Source: Acidimicrobiaceae bacterium (GTDB lineage: Bacteria > Actinomycetota > Acidimicrobiia > Acidimicrobiales > Aldehydirespiratoraceae). Taken from it: a stretch of DNA of 64,000 bases. Each line of letters opens with the position of its first letter. The first letter of the stretch is position 1. Below, one piece after another: positions 17,335-21,012 of this stretch. The position numbers were made by a program, and so were the translations under genes. The stretch is from positions 13,082-77,081 of the forward strand of contig JAPPLH010000067.1 of the NCBI GenBank assembly GCA_028819505.1, in the 5' to 3' direction. Under the pieces are notes generated by a model. That model did no database searches and was not told the DNA's origin. It saw only the letters and a list, made by a program, of their open reading frames with translations.

Positions 17335-17456
17335 GCCCGCCAGTATCACGCTGGCGGGCTCCGGCGCGTCTCGTCGGGCGGGCTCCGCTGGGGTGTGACT
17401 GTGCCCGCCAGTCTGGCGCTGGCGGGCTCCGGCGCGTCCCGTCGGGCGGGCTCCGC
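17335..17456. repeat. two imperfect 54-bp direct repeats, each with a hairpin
   Basis: Units 17335-17388 and 17403-17456 are nearly the same. Each begins with GCCCGCCAG, which pairs with CTGGCGGGC a few bases later, forming a nine-base stem. The pair lies just before the acyl-CoA synthetase gene and fills, with the 11-bp array, the 350-base spacer 17153-17502. It may be a small mobile palindromic repeat or leader structures. Confidence 0.65.
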
Positions 17457-17502
17457 CGCGCGTTACGCTCCCATCGCTGTTCTAGCTACCGGAGCAACCT
17501 GC

Positions 17503-19125
17503 ATGACCGAGCCGATCTACGACGCCCGGACCTTCTGGGAGTTGCTCGACCGACGGGTGGCGGCCACGCCCGACCGGATGATGCTGGTCGACGAGACGGG
17601 ACGCTCGCTGACTTTCGCAGAGTTCAGGGACCAGGCCGAGCGTGTGGCCGCGGGGCTGCTGGCCATGGGCGTCACCGAGGGCACGCCGGTCACCTGGGTG
17701 CTGCCCACCCGCATCGAGACCGTGCTGGCGAGCTTCGCCCTCAGCCGTCTCGGCGCGGTGCAGAACCCGATCATCCACATCTACCGCCGCCGTGAGGTCG
17801 GGTTCTGCATCCGGCAGACGGGCGCCGAGCTGGTCGTGCATCCGGGCGTCTGGAACGGCTTCGACTACGGCGGCATGGTCGGCGAGATCGTCGCGGGGCT
17901 CGACCACGAGGCCCGGGCCCTCGCAGGCTACGACAACCTCCCCGAAGCCGATCCGGCCACTCTGCCGCCGGCGCCGGAATCCGACGGCGGCGCCGTGCGC
18001 TGGCTGTACTACACCTCGGGAACCACCTCTGACCCCAAGGGCGTGAAGCACTCCGACGCCTCGTTGATCGCCGGCGGGGTCGCGCTGGCCCGGGCCCTCG
18101 ACATGAGCGGCGGCGACGTGGGCTCCATCGCCTTCCCGTACGCCCACATCGGCGGACCCGACTACATGGTGACGATGCTTGCGGCCGGGTTCGGCGCCGT
18201 GCTCGTCGAGCGTTTCGACCCGGCCGCGGCGGTCGTGACCTACGCCCGCCACGGCGTGACCATGGCCGGCGGCTCGACGGCCTTCTACCAGATGTTCCTG
18301 GAGGAGGACCGCAAGTCGCGCCAGTCCGCCGGCCGTCCGGCCATTCCCGCCCTGAGGGTGCTGTCGGGCGGGGGCGCCCCCAAGCCGCCCGACGTCTACT
18401 TCCGGGTGAAGGAGCAGATGGGGGTGCCCGTGGCCCACGGGTACGGCATGACCGAGTGCCCGATGATCTCGCAGGGCTCGCCCCGTGACAGCGACCACCA
18501 GTTGGCGTACACCGACGGGCGCCCGGTCCACGGCTGCGACGTGTCGATCGTGGCCATGGCCGCCGACGGCGGGGAGGCGCCCGCCCCCGCCGGCGTGCAG
18601 GGCGAGGTGAGGGTGAGCGGCCCGATGCTGTTCTCGGGCTACACCGATCCCCGCCTCGACAAGGATGCCTTCGACGCCCGGGGCCGCTTCCGCACCGGCG
18701 ATCTGGGCGTGCTGGGCGCCGACGGGCACCTGACGCTGACCGGGCGGGTGAAGGACATCATCATCCGCAAGGGGGAGAACATCTCCGCCAAGGAGATCGA
18801 GGACGTGCTGTACACCCACGACAAGGTGGGGGCGGCCGCGGTCATCGGCCTGTCGGACCACAAGAGGGGCGAGCGGGTCTGCGCGGTGGTCGAGACCACG
18901 CCCGGCTCCGACGATCTGACCTTCGACGAGATGGTCGAGGCCTGCCTCGCGGCCGGCCTGGCCCGCCAGAAGGTTCCCGAGCAGCTCGAGATCTATCCCG
19001 GCCCGCTGCCCCGCAACGCCACTCTCAAGATCCTCAAGCACAAGCTGCGAGAGGTCTATGAGAGGAAGGGGCCGGTGAGCCTGGCCGAGAGAAAGGTCTA
19101 CGTGGCCCGACAGGAAGAGGATTGA
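17503..19125 (+). CDS. acyl-CoA synthetase (AMP-binding enzyme)
   Basis: A 540-residue class I adenylate-forming enzyme that activates a carboxylic acid as acyl-AMP and transfers it to CoA. Motifs in order: YYTSGTTSDPKGVKHS phosphate loop (about 169-184), GYGMTE (about 315-320), RTGDLG (about 400), GRVKDIIIRKGENIS hinge and the C-terminal lysine region NATLKILK. ATG 17503 gives the natural N-terminus MTEPIYDARTFWELLDRRV; longer frames run into repeat DNA. Its place after the SDR gene and before the redox genes suggests fatty acid, sterol or aromatic acid catabolism. The acid used is not determined. Confidence 0.92.
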   Translation: MTEPIYDARTFWELLDRRVAATPDRMMLVDETGRSLTFAEFRDQAERVAAGLLAMGVTEGTPVTWVLPTRIETVLASFALSRLGAVQNPIIHIYRRREVGFCIRQTGAELVVHPGVWNGFDYGGMVGEIVAGLDHEARALAGYDNLPEADPATLPPAPESDGGAVRWLYYTSGTTSDPKGVKHSDASLIAGGVALARALDMSGGDVGSIAFPYAHIGGPDYMVTMLAAGFGAVLVERFDPAAAVVTYARHGVTMAGGSTAFYQMFLEEDRKSRQSAGRPAIPALRVLSGGGAPKPPDVYFRVKEQMGVPVAHGYGMTECPMISQGSPRDSDHQLAYTDGRPVHGCDVSIVAMAADGGEAPAPAGVQGEVRVSGPMLFSGYTDPRLDKDAFDARGRFRTGDLGVLGADGHLTLTGRVKDIIIRKGENISAKEIEDVLYTHDKVGAAAVIGLSDHKRGERVCAVVETTPGSDDLTFDEMVEACLAAGLARQKVPEQLEIYPGPLPRNATLKILKHKLREVYERKGPVSLAERKVYVARQEED

Positions 19126-19135
19126 GGCACCGCCC

Positions 19136-19510
19136 ATGACCGGCACAACCATCTATCACAACAAGCATTGAAACTCCTCCAGGAATGCCGTGGCGGTCGC
19201 CACGGACGCTGGCGCCGACTTCGACGTGGTGCTCTACATGTCCGATCGTCCCGACCGCGACACGCTGCGGGGCATCGTCGAGCGGCTCGAGGACCCGGTG
19301 GAGGACCTGGTCCGCAAGGACTCGCAGTTCTCCAAGCTCGGGCTCGATCCCGACGACTACGTGGGAAACGCCGACGCGGTGGTGGACGTGCTGCTCCAGT
19401 ATCCGAGGCTCTTGCAGCGCCCGGTGCTGGTGCGGGGCGACCGTGCCATCATCGGCCGGCCCCTCGGCGACATGAAGGCCAAGGACCGGCTGGCCGAGTT
19501 CCTGGCTTGA
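19136..19510 (+). CDS. ArsC-like thioredoxin-fold protein with in-frame UGA at the catalytic Cys (probable selenoprotein)
   Basis: Read with UGA as an amino acid, the frame from ATG 19136 gives a 124-residue ArsC-family protein. Its start is MTGTTIYHNKH-U-NSSR, where U is TGA (19169-19171). Family members read YHNPxC-SxSR, so the UGA falls exactly on the catalytic cysteine. Downstream the frame is intact and conserved: VRKDSQFSKLGLDPDDYVGNAD, then QRPVLVRGDRAIIGRP, and a normal stop. A hairpin with a GGUC loop begins right after the UGA. These facts favour selenocysteine insertion over a point nonsense mutation. ArsC-like proteins reduce arsenate or act as thiol oxidoreductases; the substrate here is unknown. 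Without readthrough, a GTG at 19190 could give an inactive C-terminal fragment. The gene follows the acyl-CoA synthetase by 10 bases. Confidence 0.75.
19179..19212 (+). promoter_or_regulatory. candidate bacterial SECIS element
   Basis: A seven-base stem CCGTGGC/GCCACGG (19188-19194 with 19199-19205) is capped by the tetraloop GGTC. An outer CCAG/CTGG pairing (19179-19182 with 19209-19212) extends it across an internal loop. The loop starts 23 bases after the UGA, inside the usual 16-37 base range, and begins with G, as bacterial SECIS elements do; GGUC resembles the fdhF loop. It lies inside the coding frame, as expected. Confidence 0.65.
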
Positions 19511-19590: not shown

Positions 19591-19785
19591 ATGCGCATCG
19601 TCGTTGACTTCGACCTGTGCGAGAGCAACGCCGTCTGCATGCAGATCGCGCCCGACATCTTCGAGGTGCGGGACGACGACTTCCTCTACATCCTCGACGA
19701 GACGCCCGGCGAGGCCGACCGGGCCAGGGTGGAGGAGTGCGTGCAGCGCTGCCCGAAGCAGGCCATCTCGATTGCCGAAGACTGA
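19591..19785 (+). CDS. small ferredoxin, P450-partner type
   Basis: A 64-residue, acidic ferredoxin with cysteines in CESNAVC (about 9-15) and CVQRCPKQAI at the end, the pattern of [3Fe-4S] or mixed ferredoxins that pass electrons to cytochrome P450s or Rieske oxygenases. The residues APDIFEV between the clusters are typical. ATG 19591 follows AGGAG. The FAD-dependent reductase starts 24 bases downstream, so the two form an electron-transfer pair. No P450 or oxygenase is in the window, so the final acceptor is elsewhere. Confidence 0.9.
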   Translation: MRIVVDFDLCESNAVCMQIAPDIFEVRDDDFLYILDETPGEADRARVEECVQRCPKQAISIAED

Positions 19786-19809: not shown

Positions 19810-21012
19810 ATGACCCGAGCCCCGCGCGCCGTCACCATCGTCGGGGCCTCACTGGCGGGTTTGAACGCGGCCGAGGCTCTGCGTCGCGAGGGCTTCGACG
19901 GCCCGGTCACGCTCATCGGCGCGGAGAGCCGCCTGCCCTATGACCGGCCTCCGCTGTCCAAGCAGGTGCTGGCGGGCGATTGGGCGCCCGAGCGGGCTGC
20001 GCTGACCGACCCTGAGGAGTTGGCGGAAGACGGCATCGAGGCCCGTCTCGGCGTGCGGGCCACCGCTCTGGACATGGCTGCCCGCGAGTTGACCCTCCAT
20101 ACCGGCGAGACCGTGGAGTTCGACGGGCTCGTCATCGCCACCGGGGCCCGCTGCCGCACGATGCCGGGCACCGAGGGGATCGGCGGGGTCCACGTGCTGC
20201 GGTCGCTGGACGACTGCCTGGCGCTGCGGGCCGACTTCGAGGCGACGCCCCGGCGGGTGGTGGTGGTCGGCGCCGGCTTCATCGGCGCCGAGGTGGCCGC
20301 CACCGCGCGGGGCCGCGGCCTCGATGTCACGATGGTGGAGGCTCTGCCCACCCCGCTCAGCCGGGTGCTCGGCGACGAGATGGGCGAGGTGTGCGCCGAA
20401 GTCCACCGCGACCACGGCGTCGACCTGCGCACCGCCGTCGGCGTGGAGCGCATCTCCGGCGACGGCCGGGTGGAGCGGGTGACCCTGTCGGACGGCTCGA
20501 CGGTCGACGCCGATGTGGTGGTGGTCGGCATCGGCGTGGTCCCCAACACCGGATGGTTGGAAGGGTCGGGCCTGGAGGTGGACGACGGCGTGGTGTGCGA
20601 CGCCTCGTGCCTGGCCGCCGACCGGGTGGCCGCCGCGGGCGACGTGGCCCGCTGGCCCAACGAGCTCTTCGGCGAGACGATGCGGGTGGAGCACTGGGAC
20701 AACGCGGCCCAGCAGGGCGCCCACGCGGCCCGCCGCCTGCTCGACGCCGCGGTGGGGCCGTTCACGCCGGTGCCGTGGTTCTGGAGCGACCAGTACGACC
20801 GCAAGATCCAACTGGCCGGCCGCGTCCGCGGCGACGACGAGGTCCGCGTGGTGGCCGGCTCGGTCGAAGAGCGGCGCTTCGCCGCGATCTACGGTCGGGC
20901 GGGACGCATCGTCGGGGTGCTCGGCTTCAACCGTCCCCGCCACGTGATGCGCTACCGGGCCCTGATCGAGCAGCGGGCCGGCTTCGACGAGGCCCTAGCC
21001 GCCGAGTTCTAG
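19810..21012 (+). CDS. FAD-dependent ferredoxin reductase
   Basis: A 400-residue pyridine nucleotide-disulfide-type oxidoreductase of the rhodocoxin/putidaredoxin reductase group. It carries electrons from NAD(P)H to the ferredoxin encoded just upstream. The FAD site is IVGASLAGLNAAEAL (about 9-23), the NAD site is VVVGAGFIGAEVA (about 152-164), and the second FAD contact is VAAAGDVARWP (about 274). The C-terminal Reductase_C-type domain (WSDQYDRKIQLAGR) is complete. The last 15 bases of the gene reappear at the far end of the defence island (43793-43807), next to a decayed partial copy of this gene. Confidence 0.93.
   Translation: MTRAPRAVTIVGASLAGLNAAEALRREGFDGPVTLIGAESRLPYDRPPLSKQVLAGDWAPERAALTDPEELAEDGIEARLGVRATALDMAARELTLHTGETVEFDGLVIATGARCRTMPGTEGIGGVHVLRSLDDCLALRADFEATPRRVVVVGAGFIGAEVAATARGRGLDVTMVEALPTPLSRVLGDEMGEVCAEVHRDHGVDLRTAVGVERISGDGRVERVTLSDGSTVDADVVVVGIGVVPNTGWLEGSGLEVDDGVVCDASCLAADRVAAAGDVARWPNELFGETMRVEHWDNAAQQGAHAARRLLDAAVGPFTPVPWFWSDQYDRKIQLAGRVRGDDEVRVVAGSVEERRFAAIYGRAGRIVGVLGFNRPRHVMRYRALIEQRAGFDEALAAEF

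Follow-up and report, generated by a model that had tools for sequence, protein, structure and literature searches.

A 2005 study of the Sargasso Sea gave the first report of selenocysteine (Sec)-containing ArsC proteins with a UxxS motif, with 14 sequences (PMC1088965); they returned as 'ArsC 1', with 77 sequences, in the 2008 GOS survey of the ocean selenoproteome (PMC2398784). Sec-ArsC is also covered by reviews of 2022 and 2026 (PMC9312934, PMC13188914), in which such functions are called largely uncharacterised, and the later review contains a TIGR00014/UxxS entry (PMC13188914). A related ArsC-like Sec protein is the arsenate reductase-like selenoprotein with a UxxC motif (NF041106; 'ArsC 2' of the GOS survey). 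Within the set of papers searched, a full-text search for selenoprotein together with Acidimicrobi- returned nothing on point. Arsenate is the substrate of the ArsC family. In the glutaredoxin-dependent ArsC of E. coli plasmid R773, Cys12 is the catalytic residue, and Arg60, Arg94 and Arg107 bind arsenate.

The gene described here lies in the window, by which we mean the whole 64,000-nucleotide stretch of DNA that was analysed. Its frame runs from an ATG at 19136 through an in-frame UGA at codon 12 to a second TGA (19508–19510), which serves as the terminator. The features of the locus are listed in Table 1.

Table 1. Features of the putative Sec-ArsC locus (positions of the window)
Feature	Coordinates	Strand	Description	Basis
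Putative Sec-ArsC gene	19136..19510	+	124 aa, MTGTTIYHNKH-U-NSSR...AEFLA	Translation; Pfam/NCBIfam ArsC; 80 relatives aligned full length
In-frame UGA, codon 12	19169..19171	+	Catalytic Cys position of ArsC; motif UxxS (U-N-S-S)
Candidate SECIS hairpin	19188..19205	+	CCGUGGC-GGUC-GCCACGG; 7-bp stem, loop GGUC	Fold −12.6 kcal/mol
AMP-binding (acyl-CoA ligase type) gene, upstream	17395..19125	+	Standard TGA stop	Pfam PF00501/PF13193
Small single-cluster ferredoxin, next downstream gene	19591..19785	+	TGA stop	Pfam Fer4_13/Fer4_15
FAD-dependent ferredoxin-reductase-type oxidoreductase	19810..21012	+	Kept in nearest relatives	Pfam Pyr_redox_2 + Reductase_C

The locus resembles the UxxS Sec-ArsC family (PMC1088965, PMC2398784) in its COG1393/PF03960 assignment, in the predicted Sec at the catalytic Cys, in the UxxS motif and in a SECIS-like hairpin directly downstream. 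It differs in being tied to a genome that has its own Sec machinery and that its nearest named relatives place in the class Acidimicrobiia, and in an RNA element for which covariation and constrained synonymous sites give support; we claim no difference in biochemistry. Unlike the UxxC family NF041106, it reads U-N-S-S and has no resolving Cys at that position. The R773-type ArsC (PDB 1i9d, 1jzw) is similar in fold family as judged by sequence (phmmer 2e-14), in the position of the nucleophile and in the equivalents of Arg60 and Arg94, whereas the present protein would carry Sec in place of Cys12 and an ars operon was not recognised here. The Sec-ArsC type is already known, as the first-pass annotation had correctly stated (PMC1088965, PMC2398784, PMC13188914), and the present gene adds an unusually well supported member.

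With Cys placed at the UGA, the product scored 50.3 bits against Pfam ArsC (PF03960, cut-off 24), and its best NCBIfam match was TIGR00014 at 79.4 bits, short of that model's equivalog cut-off of 106 bits. These scores support the predicted product as a member of the ArsC family (COG1393/TIGR00014) at family level; since the equivalog cut-off was not reached, the functional name arsenate reductase is not assured. Codon 12 aligned with the catalytic Cys12 of solved E. coli-type (R773-type) ArsC chains, and the same position was TGC or TGT in 49 Cys homologues. Arg60 and Arg95 of the query aligned with Arg60 and Arg94 of the solved chains, and a third arginine, R108, was assigned to R107 of R773 ArsC by means of the GRP motif. 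U12, R60, R95 and R108 were invariant among 24 aligned proteins. The first-pass annotation had described a frame YHNKH-TGA-NSSR open into an ArsC-type protein, with the TGA at the family's catalytic cysteine, and both descriptions agreed with the translation (19136 to 19510) and with the alignments.

The acyl-CoA ligase-type gene, which also adjoins Sec-ArsC in the nearest relatives, ends 10 nt ahead of the Sec-ArsC start, and the two genes are likely on the same transcript. Sec-ArsC is followed in 15 relatives by genes for the glycine-cleavage T and P proteins and not by the ferredoxin genes of the window (cluster representatives L053 and L054, 15 loci each).

These surroundings bear on the substrate. 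Of the genes that recur beside Sec-ArsC in 80 loci, none was recognised as an arsenic gene, and neither ACR3 nor ArsB, the two arsenite exporters searched, was found in the draft host genome, so that arsenate is only a presumed substrate. The protein may instead be a selenoprotein with another physiological substrate, a redox enzyme of the Spx/ArsC fold acting on a different oxidant or thiol. The acyl-CoA ligase, ferredoxin and ferredoxin reductase neighbours speak for this, as do the missing exporters, the TIGR00014 score under its equivalog cut-off and the neighbourhood in other Acidimicrobiia, where genes for glycine-cleavage T and P proteins and SerB-like, CoaE-like or enoyl-CoA hydratase-like genes were found repeatedly beside Sec-ArsC. 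Against it, the equivalents of the three arsenate-binding arginines of R773 ArsC are invariant, and TIGR00014 far outscored the Spx models on this product (79 versus 30–43 bits). We regard a non-arsenate substrate as a tentative possibility that deserves serious attention, and we infer, provisionally, arsenate rather than another oxidant. With respect to thiol systems, the mycothiol gene mshA gave one long match in the host (357 bits), below the cut-off of 462.

For comparison with close relatives, the best 80 of 173 confirmed relatives in the genome collection were kept. TGA stood at codon 12 in 80/80 of these; the peptide search pattern across the site had been back-translated with Cys codons, which does not favour TGA and may favour this subfamily. 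Past the UGA, dN/dS against nine close relatives was 0.09–0.21, indicating purifying selection. TGC or TGT in close relatives together with a decaying downstream frame had been named as a sign against selenocysteine, and neither was found. Some metagenome-assembled genomes labelled Verrucomicrobiota or Planctomycetota carried near-identical hairpins and UGA-ArsC genes (L047, L077, L090, L092, L093, L094, L097, L099); these copies reflect either horizontal transfer or binning errors.

The mechanical list of open reading frames gave only a 106-aa fragment starting past the active site, which would fit translation from GTG 19190, with the upstream piece untranslated and a product devoid of the active-site residue. 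In all relatives, however, the amino acids flanking the UGA in the YHNKH-UGA-NSS segment were conserved, and a start at GTG 19190 would sit inside the hairpin and drop the catalytic strand. A downstream start was rejected on these grounds as highly improbable.

The hairpin begins 16 nt past the UGA and its GGUC loop 23 nt past it, with the seven base pairs and the loop that had been claimed from the sequence at first reading. The published bacterial SECIS model has a loop of 3–9 nt, a stem of 4–16 bp, G in the first two loop positions, a spacing of 16–37 nt and an energy of at most −7.5 kcal/mol (PMC13188914), and the hairpin here (GGUC, 7 bp, 23 nt, −12.6 kcal/mol) agrees with every part of it. 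When the region after the UGA was folded, as had been proposed, the hairpin formed, while the folding energy of the 57-nt segment was no better than that of shuffles (z −0.80) and was uninformative. The 18-nt hairpin alone reached z −3.7 against shuffles, a value for a segment chosen after the fact. On its own, the hairpin is only modest evidence for a SECIS element. A search of Rfam with it gave no relevant match.

Comparison across 81 genes was more telling. The loop region GCGGTCGC (stem end, loop and stem start; eight bases) was identical in 81/81 genes, even though it covers Ala and Val codons whose third positions are free to vary, and the full 7-bp helix can pair in 78/81. Synonymous codon homozygosity at codons 6–11 past the UGA was 0.95, 0.64, 1.00, 1.00, 0.64 and 1.00 in the 81 genes, where 0.25–0.52 was expected from the family's own codon usage; the GCG and GTC codons stood at 1.00 versus an expected 0.35, and the first GCC at 0.95. 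Codon choice was frozen at codons 6–11 only and was near expectation from codon 12 on. Two stem pairs covaried, one changing from G-C to A-U or C-G (synonymous) and another from U-A to G-C. The stem scored 0.229 for covariation; shuffles gave 0.115 (0 of 500), and no slid helix exceeded 0.072. Covariation partly reflects shared ancestry, which the slid-helix controls have as well. The kept loop and helix, the covarying stem pairs and the restriction of frozen synonymous sites to this element together put the hairpin beyond chance.

A single in-frame stop could likewise arise from a nonsense mutation or a sequencing error that turned a Cys codon into TGA. This explanation was refuted by the same-codon TGA in 80 relatives from separate assemblies, by purifying selection past the UGA and by the frozen RNA element, and we give it a negligible probability.

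The host assembly that contains the window is a draft of 3.73 Mb, 94% complete. It encodes a tRNA-Sec with anticodon TCA (tRNA-Sec(UCA), 66.9 bits), SelB (274 bits) and SelA (369 bits), which adjoin on contig C123, and SelD (354 bits). The first-pass annotation had held absence of this machinery to be fatal to its claim; all four components searched for, selA, selB, selD and tRNA-Sec, were present. The host SelD gene (L018, minus strand of G000 contig C28:2075-2989) is interrupted in frame by a TGA at GAG-*-ACK, where SelD proteins usually carry Sec or Cys. SelD is therefore probably a selenoprotein itself, judging from this site, and its in-frame TGA is an internal sign of UGA decoding in the host. 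If UGA were read as an ordinary amino acid throughout the genome, the read-through in Sec-ArsC would also be explained, but this reading was refuted and has a negligible probability, since Sec-ArsC, the ferredoxin and the ligase upstream terminate at TGA, a scan of the window for other UGA-interrupted genes gave none that was convincing, and a dedicated tRNA-Sec system is present. Because UGA is an ordinary stop in these three genes, the code as a whole is unchanged.

We thus consider it almost certain that the UGA at codon 12 directs Sec insertion and that this is a functional selenoprotein gene. The UGA, the frame, the conservation, the RNA element, the machinery with its co-occurrence and the catalytic residues were read from sequence, and it is from these that we infer actual insertion. 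The selenocysteine reading of the first-pass annotation is supported by the machinery in the genome, the TGA in 80/80 relatives, the frozen and covarying hairpin and the co-occurrence with the machinery in the class described below.

In the proposed mechanism, SelB with Sec-tRNA(Sec) would bind the hairpin 16–34 nt past the UGA during translation, and selenocysteine would enter at codon 12 in place of termination. The UGA that closes the gene lacks such a hairpin context and would terminate translation normally. The product would be an ArsC-type thiol oxidoreductase of the glutaredoxin family with the selenol of Sec12 as nucleophile, assisted by Arg60, Arg95 and Arg108 (Arg60, Arg94 and Arg107 in R773 ArsC), which may position an oxyanion. 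The selenol would attack the oxidised substrate, and a small thiol or redoxin would then resolve the intermediate.

Within the class Acidimicrobiia, an ArsC match was found in 100 of 296 genomes, and the form with an in-frame TGA in 37 of the 100. The site could be read in 41 genes with UGA and in 49 with a Cys codon, TGC or TGT, the latter including genes of more distant species of the class. The selA gene was present in 37/37 UGA-ArsC genomes versus 33/63 genomes with Cys-only ArsC (Fisher p 3e-8, which overstates the evidence since the species are related); in the class overall, it was present in 201/296 genomes. One genome, G265 (95% complete draft), had UGA-ArsC and selA, and a tRNA-Sec was not found in it at E ≤ 1e-10. 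Both forms were seen in a single genus only, g7. There, G051 (L114) has the UGA, a hairpin, selA and tRNA-Sec; G019 (L120), 99% complete, has TGC and lacks the hairpin, selA and tRNA-Sec.

The covariance model R1 includes coding sequence and weakly scored some Cys homologues (L112, L115); it is therefore not a clean SECIS detector, and loops were inspected directly instead. A simple rule-based SECIS scan, in which 22/41 UGA genes and 6/49 Cys genes passed the energy limit, was not decisive for distant UGA-ArsC forms.

A second Sec-ArsC group had, in place of the GGUC hairpin, another and equally frozen one, CAAUGC-CGUG(C/A)-GCAUUG, with the loop 17 nt past the UGA (L111, L113, L114, L116, L118, L119, L122, L123, L125-L128 and L133). 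Four genomes of one family each had two unlike UGA-ArsC genes: G246 (L106/L185), G187 (L117/L184), G169 (L121/L186) and G211 (L124/L187). In each, one copy was of the GGUC type and the other of a distant HNP(G/V)-U-G type with no evident SECIS. In a tree of 108 proteins, built from short sequences, parsimony gave at least 8 Sec/Cys changes, only 2 of which were forced by well-supported branches. A broader and rather unlikely proposal is that the Acidimicrobiia Sec-ArsC lineage might be a redox enzyme of central metabolism, tied to local ferredoxin/ferredoxin reductase or thiol systems and not to arsenic resistance, in which two or more hairpins (GGUC and CGUGM loops) would mark separate histories of Cys/Sec exchange.

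Gene callers split or drop such UGA-containing genes. For the family, these results mean that Sec-ArsC is common in the class (37/100 genomes with an ArsC match) and that the predicted SECIS can be read directly from the frozen synonymous codons of the Sec-ArsC set. The Sec or Cys state of the enzyme tracks the Sec machinery even inside one genus, and the g7 pair G051 and G019 would offer a ready natural comparison of the selenol and thiol forms of one enzyme.
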